Shown here: one piece after another, positions 24,368 to 31,523 of the stretch
Layout of the letters: each line of letters begins with the position of its first letter
How positions within the stretch are numbered: the first letter of the stretch is position 1
Assembly (NCBI RefSeq): GCF_002896875.1
Contig: NZ_CP023278.1
Coordinates: 5,774,501 to 5,838,500 of the forward strand
Length of the DNA stretch: 64,000 nt
Direction: 5' to 3'
DNA from: Nostoc sp. CENA543
GTDB lineage: Bacteria; Cyanobacteriota; Cyanobacteriia; Cyanobacteriales; Nostocaceae
Position numbers and translations under genes: made by a program
The notes under the pieces: generated by a model
Databases searched by the model: none
Told to the model about the DNA's origin: nothing
Seen by the model: only the letters and a program-made list of their open reading frames with translations

Positions 24368-27349
24368 TTACTCTGCGCCTTCAATGGGTGCAAAGCCTTG
24401 GCGTTGAATGTTTTCGGTGATGGTGCGGGGTTCGAGGAATTGCAGGAGATAATCAGGCCCTCCGGCTTTAGAACCGACACCAGAGAGTTTGAACCCACCG
24501 AAGGGTTGCCGAGCGACGATCGCCCCTGTAATGGTACGGTTAATATACAAATTCCCGACTTCAAAATCTGTCTGTGCCTTGTGAATGTGGGAAGGTGTGC
24601 GGGAATAAATCCCACCAGTTAAGGCGTAGTTAGTATCATTGGCGACAGCTAAAGCTTCAGTAAAATTCTTAACTTTAATCACAGCCAATACAGGGCCAAA
24701 AATCTCTTGTTGGGCAATTATGCCATTGGGAGGCACTTCACTAAAAATGACTGGCCCGACAAAATAACCGTGATCAGGTGCTGATAACTCTAAAGCTACC
24801 TGGGATTCGGCCTTACCCTTTTCAATATACTCACGGATGCGATCGCGTGCATTGGCATCAATCACCGGGCCGACTTGGGTACTGGGTAACTCCGCTTCCC
24901 CAATATTCAAAGATTTTGTCGCTTCCACTAATCGCCGGATAAAAGCATCATAGATACTTTCTACCACTACCGCCCGTGAACAAGCTGAACATTTTTGTCC
25001 ACTGTAACCAAAGGCTGACTGTAACACCCCGACAACAGCTTGGTCTAAATCAGCACTTTCATCAACAATGATGGCATTTTTACCACCCATCTCCGCAATT
25101 ACCCGCTTCATATGCCTTTGTCCAGGCTTGAGGGTTGCAGCTTCGGCATAAATCCGACAACCCACTTCTTGAGAACCTGTAAAAGCAATGACATGAGTGT
25201 CAGGATGACTCACCAAATAAGCACCCACTTGTGAACCCTTCCCAGGGACGTATTGAAATACACCTTGAGGAATCCCCGCTTCCACCAAAATTTCCGTCAG
25301 TTTAGCCGTAATTACAGAAGAAGTTTCCGCAGGTTTGAGGAGAGTACAATTACCCGCAACCAAAGCAGCCACAGTCATGCCACAGGCGATTGCCAACGGA
25401 AAATTCCAAGGTGAAATCACCACAGCAATTCCACGGGGCTGATAAATATATCTATTAGTTTCCCCAGCCACGTCATAAATTACACCCTGATCCAACCGTT
25501 CCATTTCATCGGCGTAGTAGCGACAAAAATCAATCGCCTCCGAAACTTCCGCATCCGCTTCCTTAACAGGTTTACCCACCTCCAGAACAATCCAAGCCGA
25601 GAGTTCCGCCCGACGCTGTTCCATCAAATCAGCCGCCCGACGCAAAACCCCCGCCCGTTCCTGCACAGGCGTATTCTTCCAACCAGGAAAAGCCGCCTTA
25701 GCCGCCCGCATAGCTTTTTCTGCCTGTTCCACCGAAATCAGTCCAACCTTCCCCACCACCTCACTAAAATTAGAAGGATTAACCGAATCAATCACCTCGA
25801 CAGTATTGACATACTCCCCATCAATCAAAGGCAAATAACTCTTTCCTAATTGCTGACGCACCGCCGCAAAAGCCCGCGCCGCCTCATTCCTCTCCTCCTC
25901 CACCGCATAATCTGTATCCACCGCACCCATAAACCCTGCGCCTTCTTTGCGACTCTGCGCCTTTGCGCGAAACAAATCAATATCCGGTGCAGCAAGCAAC
26001 TCCTCCACTGGCTTATTTTCCAAATTTTGCCGTAAAAAAGAACTATTAGCCGTATTTTCCAACAACCGCCGAATCAGATAAGCCATCCCCGGCAATAGTT
26101 CCCCATAGGGACAATAAACCCGCACCCGATAACCCCTATCCACCAAAGCCTTAGCTAACTTATCCCCCATCCCATACAACACCTGCATTTCAAACCGCCG
26201 CCGGGGGACATTCAGACTTTCCGCGATCGCGATCGCCCGTGCTTGCGATCGCACATTATGACTACCGATAGCAGCATAAACATACTGATGATTTTCCAAC
26301 AATAGCTGAGTTATCGCTTCAAAATTCGCATCAGTTGCCGCCTTATCATTAAAAACAGGCTGCGCCCAATGTTTCTGAGCCGCCTTAATAGTTTCCTGAT
26401 CCCAATACGCCCCTTTTACCAAGCGAATAGTTAACGGATAACCACGCTGTTTTAACCAATCGATGATTTTTCCGGCATCCTGTTCACTATCACGCAGATA
26501 AGCTTGAATCGTGATCCCAATATCGGTACGTTGGCGGAACTCATCTTCTAATAAGATTTTTTGCAAAATATTAAAAGTTAAGTCTTTATAAGCGTACTGT
26601 TCCATATCAAAATGGATAGCAGCACCTAAATCTTGAGCATGGCGTAATAAATTACGGATGCGATCGCTAACTCGCTCTTCACTACCTTGAGCATCTAAAG
26701 GGTCAAATTGGGAATAAAAAGCCGTTAACTTCACAGAAACTTGGACTTTTGCCAATGGTTCGCCATCAGCCTCATCAATCACCCCAATATTGCCCCAATT
26801 CTTCGCAGCAGTGGTTAATTGCGTAATTAATTCTCGATAGCGTTCTAGATAAGATTGTGCCTCTACTTCTGTAATTACCGCTTCCCCAAGTAAATCAATG
26901 GTGAAAGCCATCTTTTCTTTGCGGAGTCGTTCAACGGTTTTGATGACTTGTTGAATATTTTCGCCGGAAATATATTTATGAGCTAAAGTCTCAACTGCTG
27001 TCGATACGGTAGTTGCAGCCACTTGTCCTGGCATAGAATCGGCATTAGCAAAATTGAGCATCCCCTTTAAGGCGGCGGGAAGTTCTACAGATTCATCGCC
27101 TAAATATTCTTGCAAATGTGCAGCAATTTCTGATTTACTCCGCAATGCGGGGAGAGTATCAATAAAGCGAAATAATTGCACCCGTAAACCGGGGTTACTC
27201 ATCGCCCAAGCAAGTAATTTATCATCCCAACGCATTTGATCACGCAGAGAAGCTAAAAATGAGCGATTTTCTTGAGTTGCTGCTAAAAGTTGTTTAGCAA
27301 TTTCTTGAGTTTTCGCTTCGTAGGTGCTGGTTTGTATTTGTAGTACCAC
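24368..27349 (-). CDS. bifunctional proline dehydrogenase / P5C dehydrogenase
   Basis: A 993-residue enzyme that oxidises proline to glutamate in two steps. The N-terminal FAD-dependent proline dehydrogenase (about 130-440) shows FTIDLLGEAV, TIRLVKGAYWD and the SHNVRSQARA and EMQVLYGMGD blocks. The C-terminal NAD-dependent glutamate semialdehyde dehydrogenase (about 500-990) has its active cysteine at 787 (SGQKCSACSR) and general base at 753 (AEMGGKNA). The DNA-binding ribbon-helix-helix of enteric PutA is absent, so it is not a repressor. The linker (residues 461-472) is encoded by a CGCAGAG-type intergenic repeat, an in-frame insertion. It is single-copy here with no transporter gene beside it. 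Also called PutA or PruA in databases. Confidence 0.95.
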   Translation of the reverse strand: MVLQIQTSTYEAKTQEIAKQLLAATQENRSFLASLRDQMRWDDKLLAWAMSNPGLRVQLFRFIDTLPALRSKSEIAAHLQEYLGDESVELPAALKGMLNFANADSMPGQVAATTVSTAVETLAHKYISGENIQQVIKTVERLRKEKMAFTIDLLGEAVITEVEAQSYLERYRELITQLTTAAKNWGNIGVIDEADGEPLAKVQVSVKLTAFYSQFDPLDAQGSEERVSDRIRNLLRHAQDLGAAIHFDMEQYAYKDLTFNILQKILLEDEFRQRTDIGITIQAYLRDSEQDAGKIIDWLKQRGYPLTIRLVKGAYWDQETIKAAQKHWAQPVFNDKAATDANFEAITQLLLENHQYVYAAIGSHNVRSQARAIAIAESLNVPRRRFEMQVLYGMGDKLAKALVDRGYRVRVYCPYGELLPGMAYLIRRLLENTANSSFLRQNLENKPVEELLAAPDIDLFRAKAQSRKEGAGFMGAVDTDYAVEEERNEAARAFAAVRQQLGKSYLPLIDGEYVNTVEVIDSVNPSNFSEVVGKVGLISVEQAEKAMRAAKAAFPGWKNTPVQERAGVLRRAADLMEQRRAELSAWIVLEVGKPVKEADAEVSEAIDFCRYYADEMERLDQGVIYDVAGETNRYIYQPRGIAVVISPWNFPLAIACGMTVAALVAGNCTLLKPAETSSVITAKLTEILVEAGIPQGVFQYVPGKGSQVGAYLVSHPDTHVIAFTGSQEVGCRIYAEAATLKPGQRHMKRVIAEMGGKNAIIVDESADLDQAVVGVLQSAFGYSGQKCSACSRAVVVESIYDAFIRRLVEATKSLNIGEAELPSTQVGPVIDANARDRIREYIEKGKAESQVALELSAPDHGYFVGPVIFSEVPPNGIIAQQEIFGPVLAVIKVKNFTEALAVANDTNYALTGGIYSRTPSHIHKAQTDFEVGNLYINRTITGAIVARQPFGGFKLSGVGSKAGGPDYLLQFLEPRTITENIQRQGFAPIEGAE

Positions 27350-27538
27350 TGATAGTGAACTCCTGATGAAATGTCAGAGTTTTCTGAAGACTGCGTTTTC
27401 TATTGTGGCGCGTGATTTTTTTTGTCACCACAGATTAAGAAACTCAAAACTCAAAATGTAGATTCAAGTTTTCGAGTGGAAGATTTTCAGACAACGTGTA
27501 CAACAGTAATATACGTATGGAAAGAGGGCTAGGGAGAG

Positions 27539-28585
27539 ATGAGGAATATACGGAAAAATTCAGTGTTTTTCCCGAAAGCACTGAACTCACTCCTGAGCAT
27601 TTTGATGATAACTGCTGTCGGTTTAGGAGGTTGTACAGATCAGCCTAGTGACGAACAATTGGAAGTATGGCGTGCAGAAGCGATCGCCCGCAATGAGAAA
27701 ATCATGGCGGATCATGCCAAAAGCACGCAGCCCCAGGAGTGGAATTTAGCTATTCAGGGGGAAACTACGACTGGTAAAACGGTGACATTGAATTGGCAAC
27801 AGCTACAATCAATAGCCTCCACTAATCTCAAGACTGCCGATCCTAATTACATTCTGCAACCGGATCAAGTGTTTGATTTTCGGGGTATTCCTGTATCCAC
27901 ACTGCTCAAAAAGTATGGTTATCAGCCTGATGTGACGGAAGTAACTTTTATTGCTTATAACTCTTACCAAGTGACGGTGGATTTATACGATTTGTTAAAG
28001 TACCCCATTATTTTAGCGATCGCCAACAATGGTAAACCCATCAGTCGCGCCCAAGGTGGCCCCATTTATCTAGTCTTTCCCCATAGCCAATATCCCCATC
28101 TACAACAACAATATCCTGAATCATTTTGGATATTCTATGTCAGCAATATTGTAGTGGGAACAGAAGCAATGCGTCTCAAGGTGGGAAAACAAGAATTAAA
28201 TGCAGCAGATTTAGAAAAATTACCCCAAATTACTGTTACAGAAACTGTTGGTTATCGTAGTGGCTGGCCGAGTGGCAAAGTGCAATTACATGGTGTACGT
28301 CTGCGAGATATTTTAACGGTTAATGCTCCTGATTTCCTCGCAAAAGAAATTGTTGTTCAAGGCAAAACTACCCCTTCCCAAAATAACCTCAATTCAGTCA
28401 TTTTAACTGCTAATGACATTAAAAAATGTGACATTTTCTTGGTTACAAAATGGGGTGATGAGAAAAAAACCATACCCGCCAGAATGGGTGGGCCACTTAC
28501 CCTGGCTTTTGGTTCTGACTGTCAAACAAAAACTAATGGTTTGCGGTGGGTAAATTTTGTAGAAGAACTGGTAATTAAGCCATGA
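27539..28585 (+). CDS. lipoprotein with two sulfite-oxidase-fold (Mo-cofactor type) domains
   Basis: A 348-residue exported lipoprotein. The signal ends in a lipobox, VGLGGC, with Cys32 as the acylation site. Two related domains follow, about 63-195 and 230-345, each resembling the molybdopterin-binding fold of sulfite-oxidase-like proteins (RGIPVSTLLKKYGY with ARAQGGPIYLVFP-like; HGVRLRDIL with PARMGGPLTLAFG). I see no cysteine at the place of the molybdenum ligand in either domain, so catalysis is doubtful and a ligand-sensing role is plausible. The last 4 bp overlap the start of the adenylate cyclase gene (ATGA), so the two products are probably made together. The pair reads as a surface sensor and its membrane effector. 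Confidence 0.7.
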   Translation: MRNIRKNSVFFPKALNSLLSILMITAVGLGGCTDQPSDEQLEVWRAEAIARNEKIMADHAKSTQPQEWNLAIQGETTTGKTVTLNWQQLQSIASTNLKTADPNYILQPDQVFDFRGIPVSTLLKKYGYQPDVTEVTFIAYNSYQVTVDLYDLLKYPIILAIANNGKPISRAQGGPIYLVFPHSQYPHLQQQYPESFWIFYVSNIVVGTEAMRLKVGKQELNAADLEKLPQITVTETVGYRSGWPSGKVQLHGVRLRDILTVNAPDFLAKEIVVQGKTTPSQNNLNSVILTANDIKKCDIFLVTKWGDEKKTIPARMGGPLTLAFGSDCQTKTNGLRWVNFVEELVIKP

Positions 28586-30039
28586 AATTTCCGACTTTCA
28601 AGTCAATTCGTACCCGAATTATGGTCAATACTACGCTGTTATTATTGACTGTAATTTGCGCGATTGTCTCTGTATGGGCTAAAAGTGAAAGTCACCTCTA
28701 TCGAACCGAAAATGTGCAGGATGCTAACTCTTTTGTGAGAGTTTTAACTTATACTTTAGGTGATGAATTAATTGAAGAAAACTGGAGTCAAATCCGGCTC
28801 ACTTTGGATGTTCTTTTACGAGAAAATCGAGATTTTGTCTATGTGTTTATTTCCGATGCTCGTCAGCAAAATCGGATTATTGCCACTTCGATTAATTATT
28901 TGCAAAATCAGTATGTCCCCGATATTGTACCTCTCAAGGTCACAAATACAGTTGTAGAATCCACAAAACCATCAGTGGTAATGGAAACCTTTATTCTCCG
29001 CGATGTCTACTTTTCTGGGAATCTCAGAGCTAGACGGGGTGAGAGAATTATGGAAGTTGCGTCTGATATTCGCCTGTCCTCTGGGAAAAAAATCGGTACT
29101 GTCCGTATGGGGATTTCTTTACGTCGCATAGACCGTGCTATTACTAATGTGGTGAATCAGGCTTTGGGTGTGGGTTTCATGGGATTAGTATTTGGTTGGG
29201 TACTGGCTTATATTTTAGCCAAGCGGTTAAGTGATCCTATCCAACGTTTGCAAATAAGTGCCACTAAAATTGCAGCCGGAAATTTACAACATCGCGCCCA
29301 AATTACCAATAAAGACGAAATAGGCGCGTTGGCGAATTCCTTTAATGAAATGTCTACGGCTTTGCAAAGTTCATTTAATAAGTTACAAAAAACTTTAGAA
29401 TCTTTTGAGTTATTTGTCCCCAATAAATTTATTTTAGCGATCGCACCCCAAGGAATTGAAAATATTGCTGTCGGTGTCGCTGCGACGAAAACCATGACGA
29501 TTTTGTTTTGTGATATTCGGGGTTACACATCTATGTCGGAGATGATGACACCCCAAGAGACTTTTAGCTTTTTAAACGATTATTTGGCTTGTATGGGAAA
29601 AGCTATAGATCAAGCTGGTGGATTTATTGATAAATATATCGGTGATGCCATTATGGCTTTATTTGATGATGTAGGTTGTGATGGGGCATTACAAGCCGCA
29701 ATTTTGATGCAACAAGCTTTAGATAAGTTCAATTATGAGCGACGACACAATAATTTACCAAAAATCTTTGTGGGGATTGGGATTCATCGCGGTGAAGTGG
29801 TGATGGGAACGGTAGGTTTTACTTGTCGGATTGATTCTACTGTCGTGGGTGATGCAGTCAATCTGGCTTCCCGCGTTGAGGGATTAACTAAGCAATATGG
29901 TTGTACAGTGTTGATTACCGAGTCAGTATTGAAAAATTTATCATCGCCAGAATTATTCACTTTGAGACTAGTAGATCCAGGCGTAAAAGTCAAAGGCAAA
30001 GATGAGGCGATCGCTATTTATGAACTTCTAGAAAATTGA
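28582..30039 (+). CDS. HAMP-domain class III adenylate cyclase
   Basis: A 485-residue membrane cyclase making cyclic AMP. Its parts are TM1 at 17-33, an external domain of about 160 residues, TM2 at 197-213, HAMP at 213-265 and the catalytic domain from 300. Metal-binding aspartates are Asp311 (LFCDIRGYT) and Asp355 (YIGDAIMA). Lys351 specifies adenine, Asn427 and Arg431 (AVNLASRVEG) stabilise the transition state, and Thr420 replaces the usual Asp. That Lys/Thr pattern is the class IIIb type, several of which are stimulated by bicarbonate (from family knowledge). The gene overlaps the lipoprotein gene by 4 bp. It probably responds to something at the periplasmic face detected with that lipoprotein. 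The gene to its right converges 8 bp away. Confidence 0.9.
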   Translation: MKFPTFKSIRTRIMVNTTLLLLTVICAIVSVWAKSESHLYRTENVQDANSFVRVLTYTLGDELIEENWSQIRLTLDVLLRENRDFVYVFISDARQQNRIIATSINYLQNQYVPDIVPLKVTNTVVESTKPSVVMETFILRDVYFSGNLRARRGERIMEVASDIRLSSGKKIGTVRMGISLRRIDRAITNVVNQALGVGFMGLVFGWVLAYILAKRLSDPIQRLQISATKIAAGNLQHRAQITNKDEIGALANSFNEMSTALQSSFNKLQKTLESFELFVPNKFILAIAPQGIENIAVGVAATKTMTILFCDIRGYTSMSEMMTPQETFSFLNDYLACMGKAIDQAGGFIDKYIGDAIMALFDDVGCDGALQAAILMQQALDKFNYERRHNNLPKIFVGIGIHRGEVVMGTVGFTCRIDSTVVGDAVNLASRVEGLTKQYGCTVLITESVLKNLSSPELFTLRLVDPGVKVKGKDEAIAIYELLEN

Positions 30040-30047
30040 TATCATAT

Positions 30048-30794
30048 CTAATCTTGAATAATCCGAAAACCGTCACAAGGATAAATTTTCTGAACGCGAA
30101 AAATTTGTCGGGGTTGAAAATCTTTGACAGTACAAGTCCAAGTTATAGAAAAATCTAAGCGATGGCGAAACAATAACTGAATCCCTGGGGAAGTAGATAA
30201 CAACAAACCATGATACCTGACAAGATGCAAATCGAAATTATTGTCTTGAATGAGTAAATCTAAATTCTCACTTTTCAAGATTGTTTGACGCATGACTGGT
30301 TCTAGAATAAATATCATCCCATAGCGTCGAATATACCGAACTTTTTCGCGGTTTTTTCCGGCTTGGTTGCAAACGCCGTAACCTGAAAGCAAGACTCCTT
30401 CATTATCAACTAATGATAGGTTATTCCTAATAATTTGTTTATTGAGTTCTGTTTCAATATATTTAATTTCTTTGTGATTGAAGTAATCTAATTTTTCCCT
30501 GTCTAAATATTTACGATATAAAACATCTAATAAAGTAACTTCTGTTTCTTGCCAATCGCTATCGGTTTCGCCATCTGGAATCGAGGTGCATCTATATATG
30601 TAACCATCAGTTTTACAATTATGCTTCCACAATTGAAATTGTTTGTGAAAAGGACGATGCAGAGGAAATTTTTGCCGCCCTGTATATTCTCGATTCACTT
30701 CTATGAATTTGAAAAATACTTGACGAACAGTCTGAGGTGTCAGCACCAACAACCGCCCATCACCCGCTAATGATAGTTGGATTGGTACATCCAT
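30048..30794 (-). CDS. hypothetical protein, unrecognised
   Basis: A 248-residue soluble protein whose family I do not recognise. It is rich in Arg, Tyr and Leu, and no signal, membrane segment or catalytic motif is evident. The C-terminal half is probably beta-rich (FDLHLVRYHGLLLSTSPG). It starts at the ATG giving MDVPIQLSL, only 6 bp after the stop of the upstream partner, so the two genes form a two-gene unit on the minus strand. Convergent overlap with the cyclase side is tight (8 bp). Neither codon use nor base composition looks foreign. Confidence 0.7.
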   Translation of the reverse strand: MDVPIQLSLAGDGRLLVLTPQTVRQVFFKFIEVNREYTGRQKFPLHRPFHKQFQLWKHNCKTDGYIYRCTSIPDGETDSDWQETEVTLLDVLYRKYLDREKLDYFNHKEIKYIETELNKQIIRNNLSLVDNEGVLLSGYGVCNQAGKNREKVRYIRRYGMIFILEPVMRQTILKSENLDLLIQDNNFDLHLVRYHGLLLSTSPGIQLLFRHRLDFSITWTCTVKDFQPRQIFRVQKIYPCDGFRIIQD

Positions 30795-30800
30795 AATTTA

Positions 30801-31523
30801 CTATTGATTTGGCGGTGATGGTAATTTAGCCAGAATTGTTTGGCTAATTCTGTCAATTACATTATCCAGTACAGGGTCATTTTCTCTGCCTTTCGTATTC
30901 GCTTCATCAATCGCTACTTGAATCGCTGTCTCTAAATCATCAACCATTTCTTCTAATTCATGAATAAGTTTAACTTCTAAACCATAATCAATTTCTATTT
31001 TTTGAGTATAGTGAGTAATAACTTTATAACGTTCTTCGTAGGTTCTGATTCTCGTAGTTGAATCTTCTTCATAGGGAACATATCTAGTTTCTGTTTCCTC
31101 ATGTTTTTGTTTGACATGAGCAAAGGCAGGACGATGATCAATTGTGGTATTGTAAATGAGTTTAGGATTTCTTCGCGGCAGTTTGCGAACTAATTCCGAC
31201 AAAACAGCACAAGCACTTTGCAAGGCGCGTAATTGGGGAACGGTTAGTTCTACTGCAATTCCATACCAGTTAAAAGTTCCTGTATTTTGAGAGTTGGCTT
31301 TTTGTCTTGCGCCGTGTTGACTGACTACATCTTTGACAATTTCTAACACGCGCACACTAATTTCTTCAGGGGAATAATCTACATAAGTTTCTCTAACTTC
31401 GTCTTGTAGTTCATCTTCAGCATTATAATTACGATGGCGAACTTCTTGCGCTCTGATTTTTTCAATCCAGGCGATCGCTTTAGCTAGTTCTCGTTTTTGT
31501 TTGGTAAATGTGGTCTGAACCAT
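30801..31523 (-). CDS. hypothetical protein, partner of the following gene
   Basis: A 240-residue soluble protein, mostly helical by composition. It starts with a basic helix (KQKRELAKAIAWIEKIRAQ) and ends with an acidic helical stretch (IHELEEMVDDLETAIQVAIDEA). The middle holds a charged repeat-like segment (EETETRYVPYEEDSTTRIR). No domain is recognised. The gene is first in a pair with the 248-residue protein; the 6-bp spacing argues for translational linkage and a joint function. A 1.1-kb gene-free stretch lies upstream of it. Possible roles in nucleic-acid or protein binding are speculation. Confidence 0.7.
   Translation of the reverse strand: MVQTTFTKQKRELAKAIAWIEKIRAQEVRHRNYNAEDELQDEVRETYVDYSPEEISVRVLEIVKDVVSQHGARQKANSQNTGTFNWYGIAVELTVPQLRALQSACAVLSELVRKLPRRNPKLIYNTTIDHRPAFAHVKQKHEETETRYVPYEEDSTTRIRTYEERYKVITHYTQKIEIDYGLEVKLIHELEEMVDDLETAIQVAIDEANTKGRENDPVLDNVIDRISQTILAKLPSPPNQ

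Follow-up and report, generated by a model that had tools for sequence, protein, structure and literature searches.

A PruR-like lipoprotein encoded with a membrane adenylate cyclase in Cyanobacteriales: a candidate pterin receptor with cAMP output

Introduction

PruR is a periplasmic pterin-binding protein encoded directly upstream of DcpA, and in the Agrobacterium model outlined in passages of a 2026 review, PruR loaded with pterin attaches to the periplasmic portion of DcpA, the c-di-GMP activity of which then shifts (PMC13259868). The same passages give Asn102, Tyr104 and Trp160 as the pterin residues of Agrobacterium PruR, with the Tyr sometimes replaced by Phe and the Asn by Asp. They also describe the roles of cyanobacterial pterin glycosides as incompletely understood, light protection and phototaxis having been proposed (PMC13259868). 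In Synechocystis, according to excerpts of a 2012 review on UV-A, cyanopterin occurs in the tetrahydro form at an abundance equal to that of chlorophyll a, and phototaxis is altered in a pterin glycosyltransferase mutant (PMC3546692). These excerpts link pterins and, separately, cAMP to UV-A phototaxis; they attribute the rise of cAMP under UV-A and under blue light to another cyclase, Cya1, and they name no pterin receptor acting on cAMP (PMC3546692).

Here we describe a cyanobacterial gene pair that joins a PruR-like lipoprotein to a membrane adenylate cyclase. A search of the literature found no paper on such a lipoprotein/cyclase pair; an earlier mention is possible, the original PruR paper lying outside the coverage of that search.

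Results

A lipoprotein gene and a membrane cyclase gene overlap by four nucleotides

The window, a stretch of 64,000 nucleotides from the 7.2-Mb genome of Nostoc sp. CENA543, carries on its forward strand a lipoprotein gene (27539..28585, 348 aa) followed by a membrane adenylate cyclase gene (28582..30039, 485 aa). Both open reading frames are confirmed as genuine genes, and the 4-bp overlap originally predicted for them was borne out by ORF analysis: an ATGA at 28582-28585 is common to the lipoprotein stop and the cyclase start. The closest named relative found, Nostoc sp. CMAA1605, has 93% identity in the lipoprotein and 97% in the cyclase. The two-gene layout of PruR-DcpA and PruR-DTB, with a membrane signalling protein downstream, is present here.

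On the other side of the lipoprotein gene, and divergent from it, lies putA (24368-27349, minus strand), which encodes a proline dehydrogenase joined to an aldehyde dehydrogenase. Of 46 other loci examined, 21 have putA beside the lipoprotein gene as well, 20 of these in the window's own family, and the adjacency possibly reflects shared synteny only. The gap between the two genes contains the sequence GTGA-N9-TCAC (27412-27428, found by eye) that could be a regulator site or a chance occurrence. Downstream of the cyclase are two ORFs of 248 and 240 aa on the minus strand (30048-31523), neither with a Pfam match above the cut-off. At 13 of the 46 loci, none of them in the window's own family, the pair is preceded by a thioredoxin-like (AhpC/TSA) gene of the same orientation (e.g. 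L086:3413-3991; Pfam was checked for one of the 13). Between lipoprotein and cyclase, an additional ORF of 157-160 aa is found in the first copy of the pair in one family (L049, L052, L054 and L057).

The lipoprotein contains two domains of sulfite-oxidase type

The signal peptide of the lipoprotein has a lipobox, L29-G-G-C32, identified by eye. Of 45 aligned rows, 44 retain Cys32, the exception being a gap in a row whose start was set late. The lipid anchor is followed by a helix (residues 34-62, 27638..27724, plus strand; helix 38-62 in the AlphaFold2 model) with a mean pair identity of 0.47, then by domain 1 (residues 66-207, 27734..28159, plus strand) and domain 2 (residues 210-345, 28166..28573, plus strand).

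Pfam finds a single PF00174 domain above the cut-off, which is domain 1, and did not detect domain 2. Two stretches matched by Pfam might be taken as proof of a duplication; since both lie inside domain 1 we rejected them and used hhalign instead. Aligned in the two directions, domains 1 and 2 matched with E values of 1.8e-8 and 4.8e-9, the best among 20 column-shuffled control profiles being 0.0037. The AlphaFold2 model (45 sequences, mean pLDDT 85.4, pTM 0.77) shows a similar order of strands and helices twice, preceded by helix 38-62. Together with the residue counts given below, these results identify domain 2 as a diverged copy of the domain 1 fold, and the two sulfite-oxidase-like domains predicted on a lipid-anchored protein were recovered. 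The protein is thus unlike the single domain of about 170 aa typical of PruR.

Domain 1 is nearest to PruR

When the AlphaFold2 model was compared with the PDB using Foldseek, the best seven matches were all PruR structures (from V. cholerae, V. vulnificus, A. fabrum and K. pneumoniae; E 1.3e-10 to 3.9e-9, target TM 0.81-0.86), and sulfite dehydrogenases ranked after these seven entries. A profile search of the PDB gave the same order, with E = 9.7e-18 for Agrobacterium PruR (7kos) and 0.0015 for the nearest sulfite oxidase. We also built a tree of 36 domain sequences comprising 11 domain-1 and 11 domain-2 rows (hand-chosen), five plasmid and two cyanobacterial PruR-like proteins, and seven cysteine-bearing SUOX proteins as root. 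Domain 1 grouped with the PruR-like proteins apart from the cysteine-bearing SUOX with support of 94/92, slightly below the tool's starred level of 95/80, and domain 2 formed a separate clade (100/99). The five PruR rows were not monophyletic, one of them joining the two cyanobacterial rows with a long-branch warning. Domain 1, as modelled, thus has a SUOX-type fold nearest to that of PruR. The original prediction knew of no such system in the literature; because structures, profile and tree all place the lipoprotein's first domain nearest to PruR, this needs correction, a small pterin being the ligand to expect and not the molybdenum cofactor.

Pterin-site residues are kept and the molybdenum-ligand cysteine is absent

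In the 7kos profile alignment, with the numbering offset counted, N141, Y143 and W197 of domain 1 correspond to Asn102, Tyr104 and Trp160 of Agrobacterium PruR. The Asn/Asp-x-Tyr/Phe plus Trp combination of the PruR pterin site is kept in all 45 aligned sequences, as DxY..W in 36, DxF..W in five and NxY..W in four; the window lipoprotein is of the NxY..W type. This conservation suggests that domain 1 binds a pterin. Since the Asn102 position is Asp in 41/45, ligand specificity may differ from that of PruR. Domain 2 also has a Trp in all 45 sequences (W337), which hhalign places opposite W197, and the same alignment finds no domain 2 counterpart of the Asn/Asp-x-Tyr stretch.

We next turn to the cysteines, of which the lipoprotein has three (32, 297 and 328), none of them in domain 1. 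C297 and C328 of domain 2 are invariant (45/45) and, in alignments read by eye, do not fall at the position of the cysteine that we take to be the molybdenum ligand of SUOX proteins. By the same reading, that position is Thr99 in domain 1 (Thr in 45/45) and about Gly238 in domain 2, and it is a cysteine in the two other SUOX proteins of the host genome (L001 and L002). The lipoprotein thus shares with PruR the lack of a molybdenum-ligand cysteine, as had been claimed for both domains, and does not show this hallmark of sulfite oxidase molybdoenzymes. Among the relatives, the only cysteine in domain 1 is at position 139 (19/45), off the ligand position in the by-eye alignment. We considered Cys139 as a possible molybdenum ligand and rejected it because cysteine-bearing SUOX proteins have a cysteine in that stretch (CYGGY, 5/7 examined) besides their upstream HCV-type cysteine.

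The partner is a class IIIb cyclase with a Cache-like outer domain

Hydropathy shows two hydrophobic segments in the cyclase (about residues 11-37 and 190-214), between which lies a Cache-like outer domain (residues 68-180, 28783..29121, plus strand). These are followed on the same strand by a HAMP domain (residues 212-262, 29215..29367; PF00672, E = 7.3e-15) and a class III catalytic domain (residues 301-476, 29482..30009; PF00211, E = 1.3e-19), both above the Pfam cut-off. D311, K351, D355, T420, N427 and R431 are invariant in 48/48 cyclases and align with a photoactivated adenylyl cyclase. We take them to be the two metal-binding Asp, the Lys/Thr substrate pair and the Asn/Arg pair. The Lys/Thr pair sets both the class and the substrate of a cyclase, and here presumably denotes class IIIb; the full class IIIb residue set is present in all 48. 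The prediction of a membrane class IIIb cyclase with HAMP therefore stands, whereas the accompanying idea that bicarbonate might control the enzyme is a guess drawn from the Lys/Thr pair by itself. Neither a GGDEF/EAL nor a histidine kinase output was found, the GGDEF match of the cyclase (E = 0.16) lying below the cut-off. The host genome has seven PF00211 places in total.

The AlphaFold2 model of the cyclase (pLDDT 79.6, pTM 0.43) runs from a long helix through an alpha/beta outer domain (68-180) and a second long helix to HAMP and the catalytic core. The outer domain matches dCache_1 weakly, below the cut-off, and residues 6-267 match the WalK model NF033092 (E = 7.5e-21) with a score well short of the cut-off set for that model; 'Cache-like' is therefore the most that we claim. 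We also looked at whether this could be a receptor of the DcpA type, since W68-x7-D76 resembles the WX7E motif. This was rejected, because the fold is predicted to be alpha/beta and because, across the 48 cyclases, the position matching the E is variable (D in 26, N in 17, another residue in five). As WX7E is not conserved in the cyclases, the mode of docking is not transferable from PruR-DcpA. The motif is a weak test, since a W-x7-E/D pattern occurs in just three of the six other PruR-like partners examined (five plasmid, one cyanobacterial), the outer regions of which differ by eye.

The two genes occur, decay and duplicate together

We searched 388 genomes of the window's order, Cyanobacteriales, sampled from a larger group. 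The best few candidates per genome were scored (up to five for the lipoprotein and six for the cyclase), so that absence is not absolute. Lipoprotein matches at E = 1e-6 or better were obtained in 56 genomes: 44 have the double-domain gene, five have remnants and seven have distant single-domain proteins. The last, which we excluded from the pair counts, are five SUOX proteins bearing the HCV motif (L092-L096) and two single-domain PruR-like lipoproteins (L090 and L091). The double-domain lipoprotein is present in 48 copies, two of which (in G317 and G465) are split over two frames. With the first 276 residues of the cyclase as query, the search recovered 48 copies, each with its best piece at E = 1.4e-46 or better, in the same 44 genomes; the next match had E = 7.8e-16, and most of those listed from there on span about residues 160-276, that is TM2 and HAMP.

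Among the best few candidates per genome in the 388 genomes, no intact double-domain lipoprotein or orthologous cyclase was found without its partner. Nor was an intact cyclase found in the five genomes with lipoprotein remnants, one of which (G553) gave a weak match (E = 3.1e-8). In the 10-kb stretches taken from these genomes, pieces of the cyclase lie next to the lipoprotein fragment in one (G539), whereas none were found in the other four. The pair sought in other genomes is thus conserved.

In 44 of the 48 pairs (the window and 43 of 44 measured loci) the two genes lie on one contig and strand, at most 1.3 kb apart and with the lipoprotein first; the 4-bp overlap of the window recurs at 20 of the 44 measured loci. 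The genes are 3.1 kb apart in G172, on different contigs in G062 and G532, and near contig ends in G008, where the pair is cut. A pattern-based scan of named genomes, many of them the same as in the 388-genome search, gave 40 loci. The cyclase was on the adjoining stretch in 38, and the remaining two match the G062 and G532 assemblies, where it was found elsewhere in the genome. Two of the 40 loci are in Myxococcales/Deltaproteobacteria MAGs (33% identity in the lipoprotein, 45-46% in the cyclase). The pair is also present, with the 4-bp overlap, on a Leptolyngbya plasmid. The lipoprotein reached E = 1e-10 or better in 16 of 292 genomes sampled from the phylum, all 16 of them Cyanobacteriales and one with a remnant (G064).

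Pairwise distances of lipoprotein and cyclase correlated with r = 0.93 over 42 loci (maximum of 1000 permutations, 0.22), a value that plain vertical descent would give as well. Finally, four genomes of one family have two copies of the pair, and at the seven of these eight loci that were compared, both proteins divide into the same two copy groups.

Discussion

We propose, with a probability of roughly 60%, that the pair is a PruR-like receptor for pterin, or for another small ligand, with cAMP as its output. The lipoprotein would be a receptor subunit of PruR type, held by its lipid anchor on the periplasmic side of the inner membrane. Its domain 1 would bind a small pterin, most likely a tetrahydropterin or a glycoside of one. 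Ligand loading would alter docking of the lipoprotein on the Cache-like domain of its partner, and the signal would pass through TM2 and HAMP to the catalytic domains and change cAMP output in either direction. The Cache-like domain may in addition sense a ligand of its own. A two-part signalling device had been predicted from the start and has good indirect support: the pair co-occurs, decays and duplicates together, and its analogue PruR-DcpA works in this way. Direct contact of the two proteins and an effect on cAMP would be part of such a device.

It is possible, if unlikely, that the lipoprotein belongs specifically to the cyclase yet binds another ligand or none; it would then have a docking or redox role, for instance by way of C297-C328, while the Cache-like domain would be the true sensor. 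The invariant C297 and C328 (45/45), the well conserved Cache-like domain (mean pair identity 0.56) and the thioredoxin-like gene upstream in the same direction at 13/46 loci would all fit such a role; however, a C297-C328 disulfide is a guess, and domain 1 retains the PruR pterin residues in 45/45 and groups with PruR in the tree. We regard it as quite improbable that the genes are co-transcribed for a shared purpose and their products never touch, the lipoprotein serving some cAMP-dependent process. An intact partner was never found alone among the best few candidates per genome in 388 genomes, duplications are matched within one family, and interaction is reported for the PruR-DcpA precedent. 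Three of 48 pairs are clearly separated (G172, G062 and G532) and would fit this reading. A true molybdoenzyme of the sulfite oxidase family that happens to adjoin a cyclase is scarcely credible and was rejected, since, despite the Pfam name PF00174 and a fold common to sulfite dehydrogenases, the lipoprotein has no cysteine in domain 1 and Thr99 and about Gly238 where, in alignments read by eye, the host's own SUOX proteins (L001 and L002) carry the presumed ligand cysteine.

On the favoured reading, pterins beyond the inner membrane may be detected by the cell, which would respond with cAMP. A doubtful extension is that the pair is the receptor for pterin glycosides, compounds produced by cyanobacteria in large amounts, with the lipoprotein reading the redox or UV-A state of periplasmic tetrahydropterins and relaying it to cAMP. 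In the host genome, GTP cyclohydrolase I is found at three places and the PTPS domain is matched three times; as these families are common, they are no proof regarding the ligand, and the UV-A and pterin context of Synechocystis may not apply to the window pair. If the extension were true, a specific receptor could be named for these abundant glycosides, together with a second messenger acting downstream of it. The pairing of a PruR-like protein with an adenylate cyclase provides a tangible, testable connection between pterins and cAMP.

Several described systems share parts of this make-up. The catalytic core is like that of the cyanobacterial class III cyclases, photoactivated OaPAC (4yus) and Spirulina CyaC (1wc1). 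The Lys/Thr pair is found in the photoactivated enzyme by alignment and presumably also in CyaC. Unlike in these enzymes, the sensor input here is an outer Cache-like domain with a lipoprotein partner. The receptor half, TM-outer PAS/Cache-TM-HAMP, resembles that of WalK, in which partner proteins such as YycH have a role, and the WalK-YycH model ranked 18th in Foldseek; the output of WalK, however, is a kinase and not a cyclase.

At both loci examined in a different cyanobacterial family (L090:3468-5688 and L091:4974-7149), the gene immediately before that of a membrane PAS-GGDEF protein codes for a PruR-like lipoprotein with one domain, likely a PruR/c-di-GMP pair. It shares the lipobox, an NDY motif and the gene order with the window pair and differs in having one SUOX domain, a diguanylate cyclase output and a different membrane protein. 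As a separate observation, a PruR-like gene on a Deinococcus plasmid (L102:3839-7664) is followed by genes for a PAS-domain protein and two response regulators.

PruR-DTB, as presented in passages of the 2026 review, has the same two-gene layout and a modular output, with a DcpA-type outer domain and a sensor histidine kinase output in place of the cyclase found here (PMC13259868). The closest parallel is PruR-DcpA of A. tumefaciens (7kos, 7kou): in both there is a SUOX fold outside the inner membrane with no molybdenum cysteine and with Asn-x-Tyr plus Trp, and in both its gene lies directly upstream of that of a membrane second-messenger enzyme. In contrast to PruR, the lipoprotein here has two domains and a lipid anchor, and in contrast to DcpA, the cyclase has a Cache-like outer domain with no conserved WX7E and an output of cAMP, not c-di-GMP. 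Since the receptor domain differs, the pair would work like PruR-DcpA without being a member of it, and would add cAMP as a third output of PruR-type signalling, along with a receptor domain of another kind.
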